A stretch of DNA of 64,000 bases from Phycisphaerales bacterium (lineage in GTDB: Bacteria; Planctomycetota; Phycisphaerae; Phycisphaerales; SM1A02), in NCBI GenBank assembly GCA_022446795.1, contig JAKVBX010000003.1, positions 175,056 through 239,055 on the forward strand, written 5' to 3'. A program made the translations under genes and the position numbers. This document shows, piece by piece, positions 11,671 through 27,783 of the stretch; positions within the stretch are counted from its first letter, which is position 1; each line of letters starts with the position of its first letter. Under the pieces are notes generated by a model. The model was given only the letters and a program-made list of their open reading frames with translations. It was not told where the DNA came from and ran no database searches.

Positions 11671-13587
11671 CTACTGGGTGCCGGCCTCACGCCGATACTC
11701 GAAGGGCGAGGCCGGGAGCCCGGCTTCGTTCACGAGATCGGCATCGACGGGATCAGGCGCCCAGGCATATCGAACCAGGGTTGGGGGGCGAGCCGTGACC
11801 GGCAGTTTGATCAGGACCTCGTAGTCCGAGGTCAGCGTGGCCTCGGCCGGCATCAGAACGCCAGTGGGCCCCGCGACTTCGAACCCGGCGACCATCCGAT
11901 CACCACCGGCCGATCCACCATGGCCGCGAACCGCCAGTGGCGAGCCGAAGATGTCGAATTCCACCCGAACACCGGAGTCCGACCAGGACACATCCCGCGG
12001 GATCGGGCCGGACTTGACGATGTTGTCCTTGCCGTACACATCCACCAGGGCCCAGCGACCCAGGCGGTCACCGATGTCGTGCTTGTTTCGAGGGTGAATG
12101 TCCTTGGGATCACCAATGTCGGTGGTGATCGCCAGTCCCGTGCCGGGCACCTTCTCGTGCGTTCGTCGTTGCGCCTCCCGCAGGCGAGGATAGTTCCAGT
12201 CGGATCCTGTGTGCGCCCAGTTCGGCAGTTGGACGATCAGGAACGGCAGCTCATCGTTGTCCATCGTCCGTCGCCAGTCCTCGATCAGCAGGGGCAGCAT
12301 GATGTCATACTCGGCCGCCCGACCTTTACCGATGGCATTGTTCTCACCCTGGTACCAGGCGGCCCCGGCGAACTCGTAATCCTTCAGGGGATACAGCATG
12401 CCGTGGTACAGATGACTGGGCTTGTGCTGTGCGGGCAAACTCCTGATCTCAGCACCCACGATCATGCTGGCCGGGCCGGCCAGGCTGATGCGATCCTCGG
12501 GTGCATCGGCCGGGTGGACATAGACCATATCGGCCTCACCATGCAGACCACCGGGTCCAGCACCGTCCTTGACTCGAAGTGCCACAACCGCCGGCCCCGG
12601 GCTCACCAGTTCACCGGGAACATCGTAGTTTCGCCGGGTCTGCCATCCGTTGGTTCGTCCGATTTCAAAGCCGTTGAAGTAGGTGATGTCGTCATCATCA
12701 ACCATGCCGAGCGACATCCGGAGCGGTCGTCCCGTCCAATGCTTCGGCACTTCCATGGGGATGCGCAACCAGAAAATCCCATCAACCTCATCGGGAATCC
12801 CGAAGGTACTGCTGTGACCGGGAACGGCGCCCTGCTTCCACTCGGAGTCGTCGACGTCCAGGCCCGTGTACACGGCCGGATTCGTCTGGGCTTCTTCCTG
12901 GATCGCCGCAAACTGCGATTGAACTCGTCGGCCCGGCGCCACGGTCGACAGGGCCTCGGGACCGATCCAGGCCTCGGCGGAACTACCGCCCCAGCTTGAT
13001 GCCACGAGCCCGACGGGAACGCCCAGGTGATCCGAAATCGTCCGACCCATGTGGTAGGCCGAACCGGAGAAGTCGACCACGGTCTCCGGGCTGCATACCG
13101 ACCAACGTCCCGAGACATCGGCCGCCGGCGCGTCAACCGATGCCAGGCCGACGGTGAACATTCGAATCGTAGGACGATTCGCATCCGCCTTGACGTCATC
13201 GACCCGATCGCAACTGCGGACCTTCCACTGCATGTTGGACTGGCCTGAGCAGAACCACACCTCCCCGACGAGGACATCATTGATCGTAATCGTCCGCCCG
13301 TCAGATGTGATCGTCATGAGCTTGGGCTTGCTCGACGCCGCCATGGCCGGGAGCGTGGCCTTCCACTCGCCAGCGGGATCCGCCTGCGTCTCCACGACGG
13401 GCTTCCCACCGATTCGGATCGTGACCAAGGCATCCGGATTGGCCCAGCCCCAGATCGTATTGGGGCGGCCCTGCTGGAGAACCATGTGATCGGAGAAGAT
13501 CTTCGCGACCGAGAACTCAGCCGACCAGGCAACCCCGGTCGACAGGAAACCGATCACCACCATCACCGGGAGCAGCCACTTCTTCAT
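11671..13587 (-). CDS. Secreted sialate O-acetylesterase-like SGNH hydrolase
   Basis: A 638-residue exported protein with a signal peptide of about 23 residues. It shows the family start FSDHMVLQQ (31-39), the nucleophile block FCSGQSNMQW with S117, VASSWGGSSAEAWI, and AWYQGENNA, all typical of the sialate O-acetylesterase family. A galactose-binding-like beta domain is inserted in the middle (about residues 250-350). The family removes acetyl groups from sialic acid or from plant and algal polysaccharides, and in marine planctomycetes the latter is more likely. A very good AAAGGAGGA precedes the ATG. No dockerin is present, unlike its neighbours. Confidence 0.88.
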   Translation of the reverse strand: MKKWLLPVMVVIGFLSTGVAWSAEFSVAKIFSDHMVLQQGRPNTIWGWANPDALVTIRIGGKPVVETQADPAGEWKATLPAMAASSKPKLMTITSDGRTITINDVLVGEVWFCSGQSNMQWKVRSCDRVDDVKADANRPTIRMFTVGLASVDAPAADVSGRWSVCSPETVVDFSGSAYHMGRTISDHLGVPVGLVASSWGGSSAEAWIGPEALSTVAPGRRVQSQFAAIQEEAQTNPAVYTGLDVDDSEWKQGAVPGHSSTFGIPDEVDGIFWLRIPMEVPKHWTGRPLRMSLGMVDDDDITYFNGFEIGRTNGWQTRRNYDVPGELVSPGPAVVALRVKDGAGPGGLHGEADMVYVHPADAPEDRISLAGPASMIVGAEIRSLPAQHKPSHLYHGMLYPLKDYEFAGAAWYQGENNAIGKGRAAEYDIMLPLLIEDWRRTMDNDELPFLIVQLPNWAHTGSDWNYPRLREAQRRTHEKVPGTGLAITTDIGDPKDIHPRNKHDIGDRLGRWALVDVYGKDNIVKSGPIPRDVSWSDSGVRVEFDIFGSPLAVRGHGGSAGGDRMVAGFEVAGPTGVLMPAEATLTSDYEVLIKLPVTARPPTLVRYAWAPDPVDADLVNEAGLPASPFEYRREAGTQ

Positions 13588-13854: not shown

Positions 13855-15429
13855 TCAGCAGCCCCCGTACCACTTCAGCATCTGGAGCAGATCTTCAACA
13901 TCCACGACGAGGTCGCCATTGAGATCCGCATCACTCTCACCGGTCTGGCCCCATCCGCCAATCACGGCAAGGGCATCATCGACATCGGCATCGCCATCAC
14001 CGTCAGCATCACCCTCGCAGGTACTCTCACACTCGTCGGGCACGCCATTTCCATCCTGGTCCTGGCTGGGACCGTTGGCAATGTCGCAGGCATCCGGGAT
14101 CCCGTTCTCATTGCAATCCGCGGACGGTTCGTAGGCAAAGGTGTGATCAACCAGGTCCTGCCAGGGCTCGCCGTATTCATCTCGCCCCTGCACGAGCGCC
14201 TCGACCATGACCGTGGAATCGAGTCCCATCGCCGTCAATCGGGCAATCCGTACCCCGTGCTGCTCGGAGCAGTCCTGCGACACGAACGGCTGGGCCACCC
14301 CCTGTTCCTGGTCCGCAAGGACATACCAGGTTCCATTACCCACAGAGAGGTCCCCACCACTCTCGAACACCTCCCAGTCAATACCCACGACACCCAGGTT
14401 GTTCTCATCGAAGGGATCGCCGGTCATGTCCAGGGCCCCGATGGTCACACGGCTGTCCAGGTGAAGATCGGCAGCAAAGGGGTAGAACGCCGGGTTGATT
14501 TCCTTGGAGGTCGGCCCACCATAGGCATCCTGGTAGAAGCCATGGGTCGACGCGATCATCTTGGGCTGAACACTGTTGCCCGCGATCGCTTCGATTCGAC
14601 TGCCTTCCGAAACAGCGGCATAGACATCGAATGTCCAACAGGGTTCACCAGTCGAGAGCAGGGAACTCCCGACGATCGAGTGGTGAATATCCACGTACGC
14701 AAGTTTCTCACAGGCCACGGTCGCGCAGGTACTGTCCTCACCATTCCACGACCCACCGGCGGACTGGCAGCTGGCCTCGGTCATGGCGTCGACACATTGT
14801 CCCAGCGCCAGGCAGCAGGCTCCAGTCATCTCCGCGAACTCGTAGTTGATGGTCACCCGGGTCGACAGAGTGCCGGAGTTGTAGATGGCGCAACCACTGC
14901 TCGTACCATTTTCGGTCAACATGCAGAGGTATCCACCGGAAAGTGCTTCCTCGATCACCTCAGGGCTGACCGCCCAGGAGACGGCTGATCCGGAGTACGT
15001 CTGGTTGAGGTAGCTCTGATCGGACGAACTGCGCATCTGCGAGCAGTAGCTCGAGTTGAGAACCTGGGTATTGGCGTCGATCCAGACGTCGACATAGGAC
15101 GCGTAGCAACTGTAGGGCTGGTTCCATCGGATGGTGGCACCGGTGATCTCCGCCCCCTCCGGAACCTGCCCCTCCAGGTCCCAACGCCAGGCCGCCCGTT
15201 CCCGCTCGTGGCCGCAGCCGTAGTAACTGTCGAAACAGCCCGTGAGGACGAAGGTGCTCGCGGAGCTGTTGTAGTAGTTGTAGGGATTGCAGCAGGACGC
15301 GTCATCCACCAGCCCCGACTGGACCGGGTAGACCGTCACGGAACCACTTTGTGCCTGGGCGAGCGAAGGCCATGCAAGCAGAATGGCAAAGACCGTGACC
15401 ATAGCCAGGACGTCATTCATGGAACGCAT
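13855..15429 (-). CDS. Secreted multidomain protein: CC module, GACC repeat, unknown domain, calcium repeats, dockerin
   Basis: 524 residues. Signal peptide (about 1-27), then a beta-rich module (about 30-195) with V-T-V-Y-P-V-Q-S-G and DDASCC, in which AAWRWDLEGQVPEGAEITGA resembles a DNRLRE/CBM96-like domain. One GACC cysteine repeat follows (about 202-240), then a domain of unknown function (about 245-435), a thrombospondin-type-3-like calcium region (DCNENGIPDACD, DQDGNGVPDECE) and a C-terminal EF-hand pair (dockerin-like) opening with C-E-G-D and ending Y-G-G-C. The ATG at 15429 has GGAGAG about 7 nt before it. It is the last gene of a same-strand run; role unknown, presumably extracellular matrix or surface. 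Confidence 0.82.
   Translation of the reverse strand: MRSMNDVLAMVTVFAILLAWPSLAQAQSGSVTVYPVQSGLVDDASCCNPYNYYNSSASTFVLTGCFDSYYGCGHERERAAWRWDLEGQVPEGAEITGATIRWNQPYSCYASYVDVWIDANTQVLNSSYCSQMRSSSDQSYLNQTYSGSAVSWAVSPEVIEEALSGGYLCMLTENGTSSGCAIYNSGTLSTRVTINYEFAEMTGACCLALGQCVDAMTEASCQSAGGSWNGEDSTCATVACEKLAYVDIHHSIVGSSLLSTGEPCWTFDVYAAVSEGSRIEAIAGNSVQPKMIASTHGFYQDAYGGPTSKEINPAFYPFAADLHLDSRVTIGALDMTGDPFDENNLGVVGIDWEVFESGGDLSVGNGTWYVLADQEQGVAQPFVSQDCSEQHGVRIARLTAMGLDSTVMVEALVQGRDEYGEPWQDLVDHTFAYEPSADCNENGIPDACDIANGPSQDQDGNGVPDECESTCEGDADGDGDADVDDALAVIGGWGQTGESDADLNGDLVVDVEDLLQMLKWYGGC
14135..14541. repeat. Copy A of a 407-bp duplicated coding block
   Basis: About 95 percent identical (some 22 substitutions counted by eye, no indels) to 17261-17667, in the same frame. 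It encodes about residues 297-432 of the unknown domain. The sequence on both sides is related but more diverged. Confidence 0.9.
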
Positions 15430-15473
15430 AAAAGAACTCTCCAAGAGGAACGAGGGCAGCCTATTGCTGAAAC

Positions 15474-16238
15474 TCAGGGACATTCGCCATACACCGACAG
15501 CATCACGAGGACATCGTCGACCGTGATGACCGCATCGCCGTCGAGGTCATACTCCGAAGACGTCGTGCCAAAGGCGCCGATCAATGCCAGCAGGTCATCG
15601 ACATCGACGGCATTGTCACCGTCGAAGTCGCCCTCGCATGTGTCCAGTTCATACTCGATGATGATCCGAACTCCCAGATCACCACTGCTGTGCATCAGAC
15701 AACCCTGTCCGCTGGACCCGATCTGATTGACAAGGCTCAGATACCCTCCGTTCAGGGCTTCGTCCATGACAGCCTCGTCAAGAGACCACGAGAAGGTTGA
15801 GGCGTAGTAGGCCTGGTCTGAATACTGCTGATCCGGATTGCTGCGAATCTGTTGACAGTAGCTCGAACTGAGAACCTGGGTACCAGCATCAATCCAGAGA
15901 TAGACACTCCATGCATCGCATAGACCCGGGTGATTCCAATGAATATGAGCCGATGTCGCGACAGCGGTTTCAGGCAAGGCGTTTTCAAGATCCCAACGCC
16001 AGGCACCGCGCTCACGATCATTCCAACAGCCGTAGTGGGGGTCACTGAAGCACCCAGTCAGCATGTATGTCAGAGAACTGCTGTTTGAATAGACGTATGG
16101 ACTGCAGCAGGAGGCATCATCAATGAGGCCACTCTGGACCGGATAGACGGTCACTGACTCTGCCTGGAGCTTGCCTGCCATCAACATGAATGACAAGACA
16201 ATCAACATGCTGATCACAACACGCCACCTCATGGACAA
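15474..16238 (-). CDS. Small secreted dockerin protein with CC module
   Basis: 254 residues: signal peptide (about 1-26), one CC module (27-200) closely related to the N-terminal module of the 13855-15429 product (V-T-V-Y-P-V-Q-S-G-L-I-D-D-A-S-C-C, then RERGAWRWDLE), and a dockerin-like EF-hand pair (C-E-G-D-F-D-G-D ... Y-G-E-C-P). In effect it is a short version of its neighbour without the middle domains. Its start lies inside the upstream gene (10-base overlap with 16229-16984), so it is translationally coupled. No enzymatic motif is seen. Confidence 0.82.
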   Translation of the reverse strand: MSMRWRVVISMLIVLSFMLMAGKLQAESVTVYPVQSGLIDDASCCSPYVYSNSSSLTYMLTGCFSDPHYGCWNDRERGAWRWDLENALPETAVATSAHIHWNHPGLCDAWSVYLWIDAGTQVLSSSYCQQIRSNPDQQYSDQAYYASTFSWSLDEAVMDEALNGGYLSLVNQIGSSGQGCLMHSSGDLGVRIIIEYELDTCEGDFDGDNAVDVDDLLALIGAFGTTSSEYDLDGDAVITVDDVLVMLSVYGECP

Positions 16239-16984
16239 GCTCCATACAGGGAGAGGATCGCCAGCACGTCTTCGATCGTGATATGGTCATCACCATCGAG
16301 GTCATACTCCGGTGCATAGCTGCCGAAGGCACCAATGATGGCCAGTACGTCATCGACATCGACGCTGGAGTTGCCGTCGAAGTCACCTTCGCAGGTCTCC
16401 AGGTCATATTCCACCAGCAGCACCGCAGTCGGCTCCAGGTAGGCTATCGAACCCCAGTACTCTCCGACTGACATGCTCATCACCAACCATTCCGTGCTGT
16501 CCTGCGCCTCGATGATGTCATTTGTCGCCAGTTCGTATTCCATTGACTCCAGTTGCCCCGGTTGCTCGAAGAGCTCGCCAGAACCGTACAGGTCATTCCC
16601 ATCCTGGATGGTAAAGGTCCCTGTCCCAGCCTTCATGCCGAGCTTGAACAAGTGGCCCGCCTGGCCATAGGCATTGTCTCCCCAGAGACGTACCTTCAGC
16701 GAGCTGATGACCGCGCCCTCTGGAATCTCTGACAAGTTGAATCGCCACATGGAGATCTTCTTGCCGCTGTAGGTGTAATCACCCGTGTTCAGACTGCACC
16801 AGCCACCCCGCATCGTGGGCGGGTTGTTGTACCAATAGGTGTTGGCGCACTGGAACCCCCCGCTCCACCAGAGCTGGACGGCCTGCGTGTCCTCGATCTC
16901 GACAACCTGAGTCTCCGCATGACCGTATCCGGCCAAAGCAAGAAGACAACCAGCCATCATTGATTTGCAAAGACTCATCAACAT
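16229..16984 (-). CDS. Small secreted dockerin protein, DNRLRE-like module
   Basis: 251 residues with a signal peptide (about 1-24, ending Y-G-H-A), a beta-rich module in which ISMWRFNLSEIPEGAVISSL gives the clearest DNRLRE/CBM96-like signature of the group, and a C-terminal EF-hand pair (C-E-G-D-F-D-G-N ... Y-G-A-C-P). Aromatic residues near the N-terminus (WWSGG, TYWYNN) could serve carbohydrate binding, but that is inference. It overlaps the upstream gene by 7 bases and the downstream gene by 10, so it is the middle of a coupled operon. Confidence 0.82.
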   Translation of the reverse strand: MLMSLCKSMMAGCLLALAGYGHAETQVVEIEDTQAVQLWWSGGFQCANTYWYNNPPTMRGGWCSLNTGDYTYSGKKISMWRFNLSEIPEGAVISSLKVRLWGDNAYGQAGHLFKLGMKAGTGTFTIQDGNDLYGSGELFEQPGQLESMEYELATNDIIEAQDSTEWLVMSMSVGEYWGSIAYLEPTAVLLVEYDLETCEGDFDGNSSVDVDDVLAIIGAFGSYAPEYDLDGDDHITIEDVLAILSLYGACP

Positions 16985-18531
16985 CCTCCGAAGTAGTTCA
17001 GCATTGACAGCAGATCATCAACGTCAACGTCGCCATCGCCATCAAGATCCGCATCCAGATCATCTCCAGCCATGCCGTAGCTTCCGATGACCAGCAGGAG
17101 GTCATCAACATCCGCATCAGCATCGCCATCAACATCACCTTCACAGACATTTTCGCACTCATCAGGAATGCCATTGCCATCCTGATCCTGGCTGTCTCCA
17201 TTGGCGATGTCACAGGTATCTGATACCTGGTTGCCATTGCAATCCTGGACTTCTTCATAGGCAAAGGTGTGATCAACCAGGTCCTGCCAGGGCTCGCCGT
17301 ATTCATCTCGCCCCTGCACGAGCGCCTCGACCATGATCGTGGAATCGAGCCCCATCGCCGTCAATCGGGCAATACGTACCCCGTACTGCTCGGAACAGTC
17401 CTGCGACACGAATGGCTGGGCCACACCCTGTTCCTGGTCCGCAAGGACGTACCAGGTTCCATTACCCACCGAGAGGTCCCCACCACTCTCGAACACCTCC
17501 CAGTCAATACCCACGACACCCAGGTTGTTCTCATCGAAGGGATCACCCGTCATGTCCAGGGCCCCGATCGTCACCCGGCTGTCCAGATGCAGATCCGGCG
17601 CGAAGGGATAGAACGCCGGGTTGATCTCCTTGGATGTCGGCCCACCATAGGCATCCTGGTAGAAGCCATACGTTGAGGAAATCATCTTCTGCTGCAAACT
17701 GTTGCCTGCAACAGCTTCAACCCGATCACCTTCTGCTACGGCAGCGAAGACGTCGACTGTCCAACTGGGCTCACCCGTAGATAGCATGGAACCACCAACG
17801 ATTCGATGATGGAGTTGTGCGTATTCCATCTTCTCGCACTCCACCAAGCCACAGGAACTGTCAACACCACGCCAGGTGCCGCCCTTGGCTGCACAGTCCT
17901 CCTCGGTCAGGCTGTCGAGGCACTGCCCAAGACTCATGCAGCAGGCACCGATGACTGGCGCAACATCAATGGCGATGCTCAGGCGAGCAGCATTGGGACC
18001 GGTGTTATGGACATCCACACCACCACTGTTGGATACGTAGGTATAGATCGTCAGCATGCCGTCTTCGCGAGCCGATTCCACGATGTTCGCCGGCAGCGAA
18101 AAGTTGAATGTCCCCCCCCAGAAGTATCCGTTGTACTGCCATTCAGGCGAATTGATGACTGAGTAGGCCATGGTATTGCTCAAGGAACCACTGGTTCCCC
18201 TGATCCCAACCGTGGTGTCTCCACCCATGTCACTGAATTCCGTCTGACCCTTGAAATGGCAGTAAAGAATGCTGGCATCCTCGGGGATACTCGAAAGATC
18301 AAAATGCCAGAAGGCGCCTCGTTTCGAACCAATGCAGGACCCTGCGTAGCTAGAGCATTTCTGGGTGTAGGTGAATTCGCCATTCCACCACGACAGCGAG
18401 CTGTAGGTGCAGCAATTGGTAGCACCCATGCTGGCGGTCTGAGACCAGGGGATCTCGATGGTCTCCACCGCGCCAATGGCACTCGCAGCAGGCAGGAACA
18501 TCATGGCAATCACTCTTGAGACGAACTTCAT
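16978..18531 (-). CDS. Secreted multidomain dockerin protein, paralogue of the 13855-15429 product
   Basis: 517 residues with the same domain order as the 13855-15429 product: signal peptide (about 1-20), CC module (N-C-C-T-Y-S; RGAFWHFDLSSIPEDASI), a GACC repeat (about 195-232), the unknown domain (about 238-425), calcium repeats (DCNGNQVSDTCD) and a dockerin-like pair (C-E-G-D-V ... F-G-G-C). The ATG at 18531 is chosen because it begins the signal peptide and has AGGAAAGG about 7 nt upstream; a longer open reading to 18837 would run into the next gene. A 407-bp block is nearly identical to its paralogue. First gene of a four-gene operon. Confidence 0.82.
   Translation of the reverse strand: MKFVSRVIAMMFLPAASAIGAVETIEIPWSQTASMGATNCCTYSSLSWWNGEFTYTQKCSSYAGSCIGSKRGAFWHFDLSSIPEDASILYCHFKGQTEFSDMGGDTTVGIRGTSGSLSNTMAYSVINSPEWQYNGYFWGGTFNFSLPANIVESAREDGMLTIYTYVSNSGGVDVHNTGPNAARLSIAIDVAPVIGACCMSLGQCLDSLTEEDCAAKGGTWRGVDSSCGLVECEKMEYAQLHHRIVGGSMLSTGEPSWTVDVFAAVAEGDRVEAVAGNSLQQKMISSTYGFYQDAYGGPTSKEINPAFYPFAPDLHLDSRVTIGALDMTGDPFDENNLGVVGIDWEVFESGGDLSVGNGTWYVLADQEQGVAQPFVSQDCSEQYGVRIARLTAMGLDSTIMVEALVQGRDEYGEPWQDLVDHTFAYEEVQDCNGNQVSDTCDIANGDSQDQDGNGIPDECENVCEGDVDGDADADVDDLLLVIGSYGMAGDDLDADLDGDGDVDVDDLLSMLNYFGGC
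17261..17667. repeat. Copy B of the 407-bp duplicated coding block
   Basis: Matches 14135-14541 at a constant offset of 3126 bases with about 22 substitutions and no gaps. The few amino-acid changes (for example A to P, H to Y, V to I) show that most differences are silent. Confidence 0.9.
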
Positions 18532-18793
18532 CTTGTGACCTTTCCTGGGAGCCCTCCGTGGACTCGCCCATAGCAATCCAAACTCATCAGACTTCGATCT
18601 GCCGATCACACCACTCCGTGTTCCCGGCTCCTGGCAGGACTGTTCCAATTCCGGCTGCTCCCGACGGCCCGATCGACGAACCGTGAAGGGAGGGAGGAGC
18701 GCTGCACAGAGGCTGTTGCCGCTTGCCCGAAGGGCCGGGATGACGCCGTCAAACCGACGAAGCCCTTGAGCAGACCTGTAGCGTGTGAGGAAC

Positions 18794-19543
18794 TCATGCA
18801 CAGCCCCCGTACCCCCCCAGAAGGAGCAGAATGTCATCCACAGTGATTTCGTTGTCCCCGGTCAGGTCATGATCGGGGTCCTCCTCCCCGAAGACCCCGA
18901 TCAGGCTGAGCAGGTCATCAACATCAACGGTGCCGTCACCGTCGTAGTCCCCCCGGCACTGCTGATCGACATGCATGACGATCCGGGCGCCACTGGTGCC
19001 GCTGTTGACGAGGTTCATGCTGTAGGTATTGCTGATTGCCGCGACGACCATCAGGTATCCCCCACTGGCATTGGCGTAGACGGACAACGGCACGTTGTAG
19101 GTGTAGGTGTAGGATCCCGGCCAGTTGATGTACATCACCGCATCAGCGTTGGATATCGTGTCGTTGACGGACGTCGCCGTCAGGCTGCCGGTCGGCACCC
19201 AACGCATGTAGATGGCGCCCGAGCCGTATCCGCCCGAGCGATTTCCGGTGAAGACCATGGCGTCGATGGACTCCCCCTCGGCGAGATCAGGAACCTGGTA
19301 GATCCAGGCTGCCTGATGCTTGTCACCCATGCAGTACCCGCCCTGGTAGGTGCAGGTATTGATGGAGATGGAACTGGGGTTCATCGACAGGGAACTGGTT
19401 CCACAGCAACAGCCCCAGCAATCAGAGGGTGAGGTGCGGGCTGATGTCAACGGCTGCAGAATCTGAACTTCGGCATGGCCAGTCGTTGCCAGCATGCCAA
19501 GAACAGACAGGCTGAACGCCATCAAGGCAGCAATACGAGACAT
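18794..19543 (-). CDS. Small secreted dockerin protein with cysteine-cluster module
   Basis: 249 residues: signal peptide (about 1-24), a module opening with SDCWGCCCGTSS and containing AAWIYQVPDLAEGESIDAM, a divergent relative of the modules in the next four genes, then a dockerin-like EF-hand pair (C-R-G-D-Y-D-G-D ... Y-G-G-C-A). GGGAG precedes the ATG. A 262-nt gap separates it from the following gene, so it may be its own unit or the promoter-proximal gene of the array. I saw nothing I could name in that gap apart from a small GCCC/GGGC hairpin near 18737. Confidence 0.8.
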   Translation of the reverse strand: MSRIAALMAFSLSVLGMLATTGHAEVQILQPLTSARTSPSDCWGCCCGTSSLSMNPSSISINTCTYQGGYCMGDKHQAAWIYQVPDLAEGESIDAMVFTGNRSGGYGSGAIYMRWVPTGSLTATSVNDTISNADAVMYINWPGSYTYTYNVPLSVYANASGGYLMVVAAISNTYSMNLVNSGTSGARIVMHVDQQCRGDYDGDGTVDVDDLLSLIGVFGEEDPDHDLTGDNEITVDDILLLLGGYGGCA

Positions 19544-23052: not shown

Positions 23053-24441
23053 TCAGGAACAGTCCGAGCCCCAGGCCGCAAGCACGGCCAGGACATCACT
23101 GGAATCGCAGTCCCCGTCGTTGTCCGCATCGCCCGTGCCATCGGTCGAACCGTAGGCACCGACAACGGCCAGGATGTCGTTGACATCGACCACATCATCA
23201 TCGTTGACATCCCCAGGGCAGAACTCATCGACCGGGTCCAGGATACTGAAGGGATACTTGACGGCACGCATGATGTTGGCCGGCGTGATGTGCTGCCAGG
23301 CGATCGATCCGTCCGGTTCGATCTCCCGGATCTCCCGGTTTGGACCGTCCGTGGCCAGGTAGTTCCCGTTGGGAAGCTTGTAGACACCGCACAGGTGAGT
23401 GCCATGAAAGTCAGGTGACTCGTAGAAGAAGACGTAGTCACCTGGCACCGGCCCCCAGGGCTCGTCGTCGTCCAGGGCATAGGTGCCGTCCGGGAGAAGC
23501 GGCGGGATGAACTCGATGACATCGGAGCTGTTGTCGTCATTCCCATTGTTGAAGAGCAGCAGGTTCTCTTCTCCCGGCAGGCCTGGATCAATCCAGTTGA
23601 CCCCGTGAACATTCCACAGGACATGGTCCCCACTGCGTTGATAGTTCGAGGGATTTCCCCATCGATACAGAATGTCACCGGCTGGACCGGCCGCCTCCTC
23701 CGTGGTGATGCCGTGATCGATGATGAAGATCTCGTCCAGTCGATTGGAACTGAAGACGATCTGGTCCAGGACCGGGTGGTAGTCCAGCGCATTGACGTGG
23801 ATCCAGTCCCCGGGGCTGTTGCCCTGTCCCACATTGCCGACGTTGATATCCATCTTCCCGGGGTTCTCCGAGATCACACCGTAATTGGGCAGGCTCGGGT
23901 CCACATCCTGGACCAGGTGATCCCACAGGTGCCAACTCCAGACGATGTCGCCACTGGTCGGCCCCGTGGGCATGACCTCGACGATCTGCGTCGGCCAGAT
24001 CTCGCTGTTGAGCCCCACTCGACCGGCCGCCTGTCCTTCGGCCTGGGTCTTGCGTTCCCACGCCACCATCAGGACATTTCCATTGGGCATGACGCAGATG
24101 TCATGATGCGGCTGGTTGTCAGAGTCTGAAAAGGTGAAGTCCCACAGGATGTCGCCGTCCCAGTTGAAGTGCTGGATGCGTCCACCCTTGGCCGCCCCGT
24201 TCATCGGACCATTGGCCCGGCAGGGCCGCATCAATTCGCCGCCGGGGAGCAGGTAAGGCGTGCTGGCAATCGAATCAGCGCCATCCCACTGCTGGATGAC
24301 CTGTCCGGTGTTGTCGATCAACGTCGTCTGGTGTGAGAACTGGCCGTTGATCGGGTTGTAGATCGTGTAGCCCTCGTAGGCATCAAACGCCATGGCCGAA
24401 CCAGCGATGACTGGAATGGCAAGACCACTGATGGACTTCAT
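23053..24441 (-). CDS. Secreted arylsulfotransferase-like beta-propeller protein with dockerin
   Basis: 462 residues: signal peptide (about 1-17), then a six-bladed-propeller-like region in the style of the arylsulfate sulfotransferase family: HHDICVMPNGNVLMVAWE, VWSWHLWDHL, ALDYHPVLDQIVFSSN, ILYRWGNPSNY, VHGVNWID, YKLPNGNYLATDG. The repeated H and PNG-N elements fit; whether sulfotransferase activity is kept is not clear. The tail is a dockerin-like EF-hand pair (C-P-G-D-V-N-D-D ... G-S-D-C-S). The ATG at 24441 is chosen for its signal peptide and a G-rich Shine-Dalgarno (GGGGGAAG) just upstream. It lies 62 nt behind the 24504-25175 gene on the same strand. Confidence 0.82.
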   Translation of the reverse strand: MKSISGLAIPVIAGSAMAFDAYEGYTIYNPINGQFSHQTTLIDNTGQVIQQWDGADSIASTPYLLPGGELMRPCRANGPMNGAAKGGRIQHFNWDGDILWDFTFSDSDNQPHHDICVMPNGNVLMVAWERKTQAEGQAAGRVGLNSEIWPTQIVEVMPTGPTSGDIVWSWHLWDHLVQDVDPSLPNYGVISENPGKMDINVGNVGQGNSPGDWIHVNALDYHPVLDQIVFSSNRLDEIFIIDHGITTEEAAGPAGDILYRWGNPSNYQRSGDHVLWNVHGVNWIDPGLPGEENLLLFNNGNDDNSSDVIEFIPPLLPDGTYALDDDEPWGPVPGDYVFFYESPDFHGTHLCGVYKLPNGNYLATDGPNREIREIEPDGSIAWQHITPANIMRAVKYPFSILDPVDEFCPGDVNDDDVVDVNDILAVVGAYGSTDGTGDADNDGDCDSSDVLAVLAAWGSDCS

Positions 24442-24503
24442 CACTTCCCCCCTGGGGTTGCCGGTCTCTCTCGAACACCGCCGGGCGGAGTCCCCTGGCA
24501 TAC

Positions 24504-25175
24504 TCAGGCGCAGGGCCCCCAAGCCTCGATCACCAGGAGAATGTCGTTCACGCCGACGATTCCGTCTCCATCCACGTCGGCATCGGAACCCGACATGCCA
24601 TACTCGCCGATCAGTTCCAGGATGTCATTGACATTCGTCGACCCGTCGCCATCGATGTCGGTCGGGCAGTTGGACCCGATGACCTCCACGTTCATGGTGC
24701 CGTTGAGATACAACTCCACCAACTGGACCGTGACCTCACCGAAGATGGGGATATCCGTCGTGGCCGTCCCCAGCACGATGTTGGTCATGGCCAGATCCCC
24801 GGAACCCTCCGCATCGAGGCCGAAGCTCACGTCGAAGGCAATCGTCACTGGATCCGGCGGCGGTGGCTCAACCACTGATTCCGTACCCCCGCCGATGGGG
24901 CAAGGACCATCGAAGAGGCCTCCGAAGGTGGTCGATGGCAGTTGATCCGAGACATCGATCGGACCGAACTCGATGCCGAAGTAGCTCACCAGGACGGAGA
25001 CCCCCGTGACCTCGAACTCAAGGTCATAGGTCGCACCATCGGGGCGGACCTCGGAGGGGCTCTCCCAGAACACGTCCTGGCCGGCCGTCTCGATATACAG
25101 CGGCCAACTGGCCGAATCGGCTCCGCCCAGGGCGGCTGCCACGATACAGATGGAGGTGAACATGTCATCCATCAT
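24504..25175 (-). CDS. Secreted dockerin protein of unknown function
   Basis: About 223 residues. Several starts are possible between 25163 and 25181; 25175 and 25163 both give a short signal-like stretch (MFTSICIVAAALGGADSAS). The body is a beta-rich domain with no motif I recognise, with a proline tract E-P-P-P-P-D-P in the middle. It ends in a dockerin-like EF-hand pair (C-P-T-D-I-D-G-D ... W-G-P-C-A). Upstream codons to 25367 are open but run through a terminator hairpin and are not believed. Probably cotranscribed with the arylsulfotransferase-like gene. Confidence 0.7.
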   Translation of the reverse strand: MMDDMFTSICIVAAALGGADSASWPLYIETAGQDVFWESPSEVRPDGATYDLEFEVTGVSVLVSYFGIEFGPIDVSDQLPSTTFGGLFDGPCPIGGGTESVVEPPPPDPVTIAFDVSFGLDAEGSGDLAMTNIVLGTATTDIPIFGEVTVQLVELYLNGTMNVEVIGSNCPTDIDGDGSTNVNDILELIGEYGMSGSDADVDGDGIVGVNDILLVIEAWGPCA

Positions 25176-25264
25176 GACAACCCCGCCGCCAAGGTCAACC
25201 CCCTGGGCCGCCACGAGGGGCGATGTTCCAGCCAATTCGACGAGTTCCGGCTCGCCGAGGACAC

Positions 25265-25299
25265 GAAAACGGCCCCGCGACTGATCGTCGCGGGGCCGT
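25265..25299 (-). terminator. Intrinsic terminator of the protease gene
   Basis: Arms ACGGCCCCGCGA (25269-25280) and TCGCGGGGCCGT (25288-25299) pair perfectly over 12 bp around a 7-nt loop. On the minus strand they are followed by TTTT (25266-25269). It lies 24 nt after the stop of the 25324-27783 gene. This is the clearest rho-independent terminator in the window. Confidence 0.85.
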
Positions 25300-25323
25300 C
25301 GCGCGGTCTCGGGAAGATGGTAC

Positions 25324-27783
25324 TCAGCTACCAAATTCCGCCAGCAAGGCCAGCAGGTCGTCGACATCGGTCAGTCCATCACCGTTGACGTCGCCCTCGT
25401 CCGACACCCCGTAAGCGCTCAACAAACGAAGCAGGTCATCCACATCCGTATCACCGTCCTGGTCCAGGTCCGTCGGCGAATACACCGGCGTGCACTCCAG
25501 CGAGAGGCTGCCGGAGCCACTGATCGTGCCATTCCAGCCACCAACCCGCACGAGGTACTGCTCACCCGCGGAGACGGGAATGGTCAACTCGGACGTGTAG
25601 TTGTCGCAACCGACGCCGTCGTCATTACATCCCAGGAGCTCACGTGTACCACAATCACCGAACCAGGTGTACGCGACCAGGTCACTGTCATAGTCGACCG
25701 AGTCACACGTCGAGATCGTCCCGATGCCCGTGCACTCAGCCGTCCACAGGAACCAGATGTCATTGACCGTGACCCCCCCATCACCCTCGGTATCACACTC
25801 GGGGTGGGCGTTGCCATCCGTGGTGGCGTAGCGCGTGGTGAAGTCCAGGCTGCCACTCGTTACCGGTATGGCATTCGAGCAGTCATCATTGGCCGGCCGG
25901 ACGAACACCGTGATCGGATCATCCACGACGCCGACCGTGTCATCTCCCGAGGAACTGGCGATGGCACCGATCCAGATCTCCGATGACAGTTCACCGGCCA
26001 GCCCGGCCGGCAACGTCAACACGTCAGAACCGTTCAAGACGGCACCGCCATCCAGGTCGCTGTACACGGTCGTTCCCAGGTAGATGTCGGTGTAGGAGAT
26101 CGTCGGCCCATCGGAGGCGTAGTAGTCGACCCAGATGTTGGAGCCGGTGTTGTCCCCGCCCACGTTCTCCAGGACCCAGTCAGCCGTAATCGAGCTGCCG
26201 TCCAGAACCTCGCCCGCGGGGGTGACCGCGAAATCGGTCATGTCCAAAGTCGTGACACCATCGATCACCAGTTCAAGCGTATCCCAGCCCTGCGTGGTGT
26301 TGTTGCTCGAGTCCGTATCGGCATCTGATTCCATCGTGACCCCCACGTAGTAGGTCCCACTGGCAAGATCGGTGGGAATCAGGCAGTACATGGCCACGTC
26401 GTAGTTCATCATCTCGTCGATGACGGCATTCTCGATGGTGAACGACTGGATGGGCCGGTCACCAGCATCAATCTGATCATCCTCCGACAACCACACGGTG
26501 AATGACCAGTCCTCGGTCGCCGAAGCGTTGCACGGATTCGATACCGTGAACACGAAGTTCGGAATGACATCCCCTACGGCCAGCTGGCTGGCGGATGATC
26601 GAGCGTACAGGGCGTGGGGATCGAAGTCCGTGCCACGGCCCGCCGGGATCATGTCGTCATAGCAGTCATCCATCATGAAGTCCTGGATGTGGACGTACTG
26701 CCCCCTCCATTGCCGGTCGGAATTGGAACAGATACCGAGGATGTATCGGTTGTCATCCTCCATGTAGTAGGCACTGCTTCCGCTCATGCCGCCCCAGACC
26801 GTATCCAGGCAGTTGCCGCCGCCCGTGAGAACCCGGAACTGGTTGGCCCCGACACAGGTATCAAAGGTCCCGTTCCAGTAGTACATCTGGTTGCCCGTGT
26901 GCAATACGCCGCCCGGGCAACTCTCCGCCGGATATGACGCGTTGTGGAACTGGTAGTTCGCGATGATGCTGGAACACGTCCCACCAGCCGCAAGCGGATG
27001 CCAGCCAACCATCGATCCCACCGGCCGCCTCAGGTTGACGATCCCGACATCCCCATCGAAGTTCCCCCCCTGGCTCCAGGAGGTGTAGACCATCAGGCTC
27101 TTGCTCCAGGAGTCTCCGTAGTAGAAGTCATCGCCCACGCCGTCGAGATCAACATCGGCATACGACGGGATCACGCGAACATAGTCCGCGAAGGCGTTGT
27201 AGGTGATGTTGTTGTTGGTGCGCATGTACAGACAATGCCCCGCCGTGATCACGGTCTGGGCATCGACCAGGGTCCCTGAACCAGAGAACTTCCGCTGTAC
27301 GCCGTTGACGTCCGTGAACCACATCTCCAACTTGCAGTTGCGTCGCCAGGGGATGTCCTCCTCGACGACGACCTGCACCATGTTGTTGAACAGGCGATAG
27401 TCACCCACGATTTCGCCGTCACCGTGGTGACCCATCGGGGCATGACCCTCGAAGCCTTCCGGTCCGGTCCGGAGCAGGCCGGACGCCGAGGGGGCGATGG
27501 GACCATTGATCCTGGTGACCACCCCGGTTTCAACGTCATAGTGGACCACTTCCGTGGACCCTTCGAACTTTGGGTCGCCGGGGTCATCCGAGTCCGGCAT
27601 GGCTGAAAGCCCCGGCCCTTCGGACTCCGGGTACTCGAACGGATCCGCCTCGGGCAGGATCGGCATGAACACACCTTCGACTGGCTCGGCCACCCCCGCT
27701 CCCGATGACATCCCCGACTCGGCCAGCCCCACGCCCGGCATCACGATGGTCAATGCAACGAACGGAACGATTCTTTTGTTCAT
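25324..27783 (-). CDS. Secreted chymotrypsin-fold serine protease with CARDB-like domain and dockerin
   Basis: 819 residues. Signal peptide (about 1-22), a propeptide-like region to about 145, then a trypsin-like domain with the triad H183 (VITAGHC), D245 (FDGDVGIV) and S334 (GGMSGSSAY), closest in style to V8/glutamyl endopeptidases. A CARDB-like beta domain (about 395-620, LEIVIDGVTTLDMTDFAV type) and a pre-peptidase C-terminal-like domain (about 635-765, NDDCSNAIPV, LGCNDDGVGCD) follow. The dockerin-like pair at the end lacks the flanking cysteines seen in its relatives. The role is extracellular proteolysis. GAGG precedes the ATG and an intrinsic terminator follows the stop. Confidence 0.87.
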   Translation of the reverse strand: MNKRIVPFVALTIVMPGVGLAESGMSSGAGVAEPVEGVFMPILPEADPFEYPESEGPGLSAMPDSDDPGDPKFEGSTEVVHYDVETGVVTRINGPIAPSASGLLRTGPEGFEGHAPMGHHGDGEIVGDYRLFNNMVQVVVEEDIPWRRNCKLEMWFTDVNGVQRKFSGSGTLVDAQTVITAGHCLYMRTNNNITYNAFADYVRVIPSYADVDLDGVGDDFYYGDSWSKSLMVYTSWSQGGNFDGDVGIVNLRRPVGSMVGWHPLAAGGTCSSIIANYQFHNASYPAESCPGGVLHTGNQMYYWNGTFDTCVGANQFRVLTGGGNCLDTVWGGMSGSSAYYMEDDNRYILGICSNSDRQWRGQYVHIQDFMMDDCYDDMIPAGRGTDFDPHALYARSSASQLAVGDVIPNFVFTVSNPCNASATEDWSFTVWLSEDDQIDAGDRPIQSFTIENAVIDEMMNYDVAMYCLIPTDLASGTYYVGVTMESDADTDSSNNTTQGWDTLELVIDGVTTLDMTDFAVTPAGEVLDGSSITADWVLENVGGDNTGSNIWVDYYASDGPTISYTDIYLGTTVYSDLDGGAVLNGSDVLTLPAGLAGELSSEIWIGAIASSSGDDTVGVVDDPITVFVRPANDDCSNAIPVTSGSLDFTTRYATTDGNAHPECDTEGDGGVTVNDIWFLWTAECTGIGTISTCDSVDYDSDLVAYTWFGDCGTRELLGCNDDGVGCDNYTSELTIPVSAGEQYLVRVGGWNGTISGSGSLSLECTPVYSPTDLDQDGDTDVDDLLRLLSAYGVSDEGDVNGDGLTDVDDLLALLAEFGS

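Follow-up and report, generated by a model that had tools for sequence, protein, structure and literature searches.

A five-gene array of predicted secreted proteins with CBM96-like heads and recombining dockerin-like tails in a Phycisphaerales bacterium

We analysed a 64,000-nucleotide stretch of one contig of a Phycisphaerales bacterium (the window, C23:175056-239055; source genome of 3.54 Mb in 78 contigs, completeness 95.96%), in which the list of open reading frames (ORFs) contained five minus-strand ORFs, g1 to g5 in transcription order, spanning positions 19543 to 13855. An earlier note made from the sequence had described them as paralogous secreted proteins with a cysteine-cluster module and a dockerin ending. 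By eye, each protein showed an N-terminal hydrophobic leader with A-x-A at its end, in agreement with the signal peptides that the note had assigned, and the five proteins are probably secreted. The leader was followed by an N-terminal module of 170–176 residues, here called the head, and each protein closed with two calcium-loop repeats and a terminal Cys, here called the tail. Only in g2 and g5 were head and tail separated by further parts, namely a GACC Cys module, a middle domain of 192 residues and a repeat of Ca type, matching the extra middle domains noted before in two of the genes.

The five genes proved to be paralogs by several measures. Local alignment scores of the heads against 300 shuffles gave z of 6–80 among g1, g2, g4 and g5 and 2.7–6.4 for the pairs with g3, and a hidden Markov model built on the five heads matched these five only in the whole genome at E <= 1. 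The heads of g4 and g5 were 57% identical in amino acids, those of g1 and g2 27% (E 3e-12, here and below for the five-sequence comparison), and the g2 head was 22–23% identical to those of g4 and g5 (E 9e-9 and 2e-10); the most divergent head and the weakest relation were those of g3 (E 5e-5 to g2). Apart from g4/g5, identities between heads of the same genome were about 16–30%. Two Cys were invariant across 30 heads and would form a disulfide stapling the head, and the cysteine motifs quoted in the earlier note were all present and fell in one alignment region. A Pfam scan of the five proteins found no enzyme domain and only weak EF-hand or dockerin traces.

The probable translation starts of the array genes were placed by Shine-Dalgarno-like GGAG motifs. 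The overlaps of 7 or 10 bases described before held for the maximal ORFs but not for these starts, with which g2 and g3 overlapped in TGATG, g3 and g4 overlapped in ATGA, and g4 and g5 lay 44 nt apart; the maximal ORF of g2 opened at 18837, and its leader began at 18531. ATGA or TGATG stop/start joints also occurred at most array junctions of three related genomes, G144, G145 and G146 (read by eye). The GGAG ahead of the junctions usually fell within the codons of the Gly-x-Cys that ends the dockerin, and the end of the tail may double as ribosome-binding site for the next gene, as is common among overlapping genes. The layout suggests co-transcription of g1–g5. A terminator scan was uninformative (3 found vs 3.2 expected), and the Rfam scan gave no match within the window. 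Two long ORFs on the plus strand, opposite the middle domains (14143–14988 and 17269–17676), were dismissed by eye as frames that stay open antisense to a GC-rich gene.

Table 1. Positions of the array genes, their parts and neighbouring features in the window
Feature	Position	Strand	Remarks
g1, 249 aa	18794..19543	(-)	Leader; N-module 18962-19471 (six Cys, DCWGCCC); GC-type dockerin 18797-18958
g2, 517 aa	16978..18531	(-)	Leader; N-module 17950-18471; GACC module 17833-17949
g2, C-terminal part		(-)	Middle domain 17257-17832; Ca-repeat 17146-17256; dockerin-like tail 16981-17145
g3, 251 aa from first ATG	16229..16984	(-)	Start at 16978 likelier; leader; N-module 16397-16915; dockerin 16232-16393
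g4, 254 aa	15474..16238	(-)	ATG start at 16232 likelier; leader; N-module 15639-16160; dockerin 15477-15638
g5, 542 aa ORF	13855..15483	(-)	Start at 15429 likelier; leader; N-module 14824-15351; GACC 14707-14823
g5, C-terminal part		(-)	Middle domain 14131-14706; Ca-repeat 14020-14130; dockerin-like tail 13858-14019
g2 stop / g3 start junction	16978..16980	(-)	TGATG, GGAGG upstream
g3 stop / g4 start junction	16229..16232	(-)	ATGA, GGAG upstream
Recipient tract of gene conversion, g2 middle domain	17260..17563	(-)	304 nt
Matching donor-type tract in g5	14134..14437	(-)
Carbohydrate esterase (SASA), outside the claimed array	11671..13587	(-)	Pfam PF03629, E 1.9e-14; found after the array in G145 and G147 too
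Arylsulfotransferase-like gene	23053-24522		Member of the row of three
Second gene of the row	24504-25367		Member of the row of three
Third gene of the row	25324-27783		Member of the row of three; weak trypsin and galactose-binding matches

The fate of heads and tails was followed in 27 intact array genes from seven genomes by nucleotide (nt) identity, with g4 and g5 pooled into a single type and one broken copy in G147 omitted. The nearest head was of the same type in 27/27 genes (mismatches 0/27), whereas the nearest dockerin belonged to another type in 12 of the 27; g1 of the window and G147_g1 are among these 12 at only 62–63% identity and carry little weight. The divergence between the two parts of the genes was most apparent for neighbours: g1 and g2 of G137 shared 31% in the heads and 95% in the dockerins, g3 and g4 of G145 37% and 87%, the G094 pair 49% and 87%, and g3 and g4 of the window 34% and 72%. 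For comparison, dockerins of different types from different genomes had a mean identity of 56% (standard deviation 4.8, n=230, maximum 87 for G146_g3 vs G144_g4). The mean for dockerins within a genome was only 60% (n=41), and therefore the effect sits in some pairs, not all. Tails thus move independently of heads in this array, a point which lay outside the claims of the earlier note and deserves a second look.

A second exchange was resolved within the middle domain. Over a 304-nt tract, g2 was identical to g5 at 293/304 sites (96%) and to its orthologue in G147 at 232/304 (76%), whereas outside the tract, from GACC to the end, it matched g5 at 469/662 sites and the G147 orthologue at 596/662 (90%). 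Shuffling the informative sites 10000 times never reproduced such a segment (0/10000). The g5-type sequence overwrote the g2 tract by gene conversion, in this direction because g2 is the copy that departs from its orthologue; third positions also agree within the tract, so protein-level selection is no explanation. It is highly improbable that the near-identity of g2 and g5 and the likeness of the dockerins are errors in assembling metagenome-assembled genomes (MAGs): the relatives are MAGs and short reads can mis-join repeats, but the tract differs at 11/304 sites, and the likeness of neighbouring dockerins recurs in the independent assemblies of G137, G145 and G094. The g2 genes of the window and G147 had the middle domain and those of G144, G145 and G146 lacked it, indicating gain in the window/G147 line or loss in the others. 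A gain, probably late, is favoured because outgroup g2-type genes lack the domain. The middle domain had no Pfam match, its PDB sequence matches reached E 0.2 at best, and it was mostly below a predicted local distance difference test score (pLDDT) of 60 in the g2 model, which makes its absence from the fold lists uninformative.

The GACC, middle-domain and dockerin tail was also found on an M12B reprolysin (L005 1-2460, E 3e-20), and the same g2/g5-type tail on a trypsin-like protein (L004 1-2457, E 1.2e-4), both in the same genome, on contigs C9 and C23. This recurrence speaks for a rival explanation, in which the array proteins serve secreted proteases with the same tail as adaptors or accessory subunits, in a ‘planctosome’-like complex, and the heads target the proteases; PMC6461901, where dockerin-bound M12B peptidases are proposed in a freshwater planctomycete complex, counts on the same side. 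We consider this rival improbable: the shared tail is present in only 2/5 array genes, probably as a late gain, and the complex needs a cohesin, while no Pfam cohesin (PF00963) was found in the genome at E <= 1, a search which a strongly diverged cohesin or one in the missing ~4% could escape. The likeness to the planctosome hypothesis of PMC6461901 lies in dockerin-linked secreted proteins of planctomycetes, M12B peptidases included; the differences lie in the cohesins and the freshwater Nemodlikiaceae there and the enzyme-free heads here. The relatives compared were MAGs titled Phycisphaerae or Phycisphaerales bacterium, and isolate names such as ALOHA among them suggest a marine habitat.

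In an alignment of 28 proteins the first and last dockerin Cys and the loop Asp were invariant, and the modelled g3 tail matched the type II dockerin chain 2Y3N (Z 10.2, root-mean-square deviation (rmsd) 1.6, 58 residues). The GC-type dockerin model NF041540 (cut-off 29 bits) scored g1 at 28.3 bits in the protein scan and 30.5 in the genome scan, and 22/30 array proteins matched it at E <= 0.1. The dockerin ending claimed before stands for the two Ca loops and the terminal Cys in all five proteins, and by NF041540 g1 alone comes to the edge of the cut-off. The tail would anchor the protein; the word ‘anchored’ in the name of NF041540 is annotation. With 150/199 candidates scored, NF041540 matched the genome at 140 places at E <= 0.1, and 47 of these matches passed the cut-off, in a genome with no detected cohesin. 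Elsewhere in the window, three consecutive genes of the same strand (23053-27783), with overlapping ORFs, had dockerin matches near their ends.

To address the fold of the heads, mature g3 and g2 were modelled. The g3 model had a mean pLDDT of 83.4 (28-row alignment), and the AlphaFold2 model of g2 had a pLDDT of 67.4 overall and 82–95 per block over residues 1–180 (30 rows). Foldseek put the same two chains on top for both models: 8WAB, a chondroitin sulfate-binding carbohydrate-binding module (CBM), and 7VBO, the alginate-binding CBM96 or DNRLRE domain TM6-N4. With VIA-align, 8WAB came first for g3 (Z 14.2, rmsd 3.3, 155 residues) and for g2 (Z 15.1, rmsd 3.2, 155 residues), followed by 7VBO (Z 12.6, rmsd 3.2, 149 residues, and Z 13.4, rmsd 3.2, 151 residues, respectively). 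After these, scores fell to about Z 10, with a dockerin chain matching the g3 tail and growth-factor prodomains matching the heads of g3 and g2. The models support a common CBM96/DNRLRE-like beta-sandwich for g3 and g2, and homology extends it to g1, g4 and g5; unrelated folds, which would have separated the modules, were not seen in the g3 and g2 models. The DNRLRE/CBM96 likeness suggested before thus held at the level of predicted fold but not at the family cut-off. A weak sequence match of g3 and the beta-sandwich over about 150 residues link the heads to 7VBO, from which they differ in being only 9–10% identical, in extra Cys pairs, in acidic rather than basic character and in the absence of an attached lyase. 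Similarly, 8WAB, the top fold match of both models, is 8–12% identical and belongs by its title to a chondroitinase, whereas the heads here are enzyme-free. The DNRLRE model (NF033679) matched 8/30 array proteins at E <= 0.1, and its single match in the whole genome scored 19.9 bits.

A common fold alone shows no function. Glycan binding nevertheless appears, by fold, the likeliest work of the heads, on a balance only a little better than even. Several results weigh against it, and against the array as pictured here. NF033679 has a cut-off of 34 bits, which was not reached by g3 (20.7 bits), and g1, g2, g4 and g5 gave nothing at E <= 1; no PDB chain matched the head profile even at E 10. The pro-TGF-beta/BMP prodomains among the next fold matches bind proteins, not sugars. 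In PMC9971899, the CBM96 residues that bind alginate are Lys10, 22, 25, 27, 31, Arg36 and Tyr159, and this Lys/Arg groove was not evident in the heads; the same alginate groove is unlikely because there are only 0–5 Lys per head, with net charges for g1–g5 of -5, -8, -16, -16 and -12 by composition alone. All 53 heads compared were net acidic (-1 to -17), with few Lys. At the other end of the proteins, NF041540 scored g3 at 19.3 or 22 bits and g4 at 21.8 or 24.4, below the cut-off, and had no match in g2 or g5 at E <= 1. Finally, the putative transcription unit gained no support from a promoter scan, which was as uninformative as the terminator scan (0 sigma-70-like sites found vs 2.5 expected). 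In the comparison with the GC-type dockerins, the likeness is the C-terminal double Ca loop closed by Cys, and the difference that only g1 of the five reaches the cut-off region and that no Pfam cohesin partner was found in the genome.

Distribution and age of the array were assessed in relatives. The head was present at E <= 0.001 in 26/181 same-family genomes, own included (15/104 among the good ones). Four of the five other matching genus members, G144–G147, held an array of 4–5 intact copies on one contig; the fifth, G148, carried only a two-gene locus of another type. A draw of 301 genomes from the order gave 3 weak head matches; a draw of 392 from the phylum gave 1 match besides the own genome, with <=9 candidates per genome scored, so that absence there is weak evidence. 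Among viral contigs, 28 pattern matches were found and 0 confirmed. In a tree of 53 heads, with 17/50 inner branches open and some long branches, g1, g2, g3 and g4 each grouped with heads of G144–G147, and the contig order was the same, whereas g5 was basal to the g4 group, had no partner in the sister arrays and was confined to this genome. The set of four head types is thus older than the genus split and has been retained since.

The earlier note had read the locus as recently expanded, and the tree and the copy numbers in the relatives contradict this. A recent lineage-specific expansion of one ancestral gene would be in keeping with the 57% identity of the g4 and g5 heads, the missing sister orthologue of g5 and the extra g4-type copy that G144 has of its own, but it is refuted for 4/5 copies by the grouping of g1–g4 with orthologues of other species, and the other head identities are low; as an account of the array it is very unlikely. 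Extra copies were also seen as second g1-types in G145 and G147. The extra copy in G147 (L047 4942-5748) was split by an in-frame TGA and is likely a pseudogene. The G145 array lay on two contigs of one MAG (L068, L069) with equal head scores, reflecting assembly redundancy or two strains. In L049 2438-3850 and L051 2137-3600, heads of a second type were fused to a C-terminal part and had no dockerin ending; this part resembles residues 622–765 of an 819-aa neighbour in the window (a weak galactose-binding match).

Taken together, we lean, with slightly better than even confidence, to an operon-like set in which non-catalytic heads of a glycan-binding-like kind sit on Ca-loop tails, the tails recombining. 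The array would encode five secreted proteins, each with a head like CBM96 or the chondroitin-binding CBM, a disulfide-type Cys pair and a GC-type dockerin tail. Different heads would bind different glycans, carried by particles, by algae or by the matrix of the cell itself, and would be kept by the tail on the cell surface or as part of a complex lacking a classical cohesin. Neighbouring genes would exchange or overwrite tails and middle domain by gene conversion, and therefore heads would diverge while anchors stay alike. The role in matrix or substrate binding proposed before is putative: the array carries no enzyme, and the charged groove of CBM96 is not evident. A bolder version, in which a cohesin-free display system of marine Phycisphaerales presents a constant set of four or more lectin-like heads together on Ca-dependent tails, and the locus serves as a module exchange with tails copied between genes, those on proteases included, and heads kept, seems to us possible but doubtful. 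We also hold a tentative place for structural proteins of the matrix or an S-layer-like coat, whose heads pack together or onto components of the cell wall, with no foreign glycan as ligand: block-wise conservation of the set and Cys-rich heads speak for them, and according to PMC9971899 the DNRLRE domain was initially described in archaeal disaggregatase and S-layer proteins. Against such proteins, the closest solved folds are CBMs, and the heads of one genome have diverged far from each other, as repeated structural units do not.

In tandem surface-protein arrays, gene conversion and concerted evolution homogenise part of neighbouring copies. In the present array, in contrast, the dockerin tail or the middle domain is homogenised and the head stays type-specific, and the split between head and tail makes partial concerted evolution clearly visible and countable here. 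The small, conserved, enzyme-free array also makes a compact set for testing ligands and anchor.

Around the array, the desaturase, esterase and carbonic anhydrase that flank it recurred in G145 and G147 but did not turn up next to the G144 and G146 arrays; the array thus stayed together while its surroundings changed. A sulfur link to the arrays, through an arylsulfotransferase, sulfatase or sulfotransferase nearby, was set aside: the enzyme differs in each genome. A large sulfatase-type gene (L073 8918-11896; Pfam Sulfatase, E 3.5e-104, two stretches) directly followed the two-gene array of G137.

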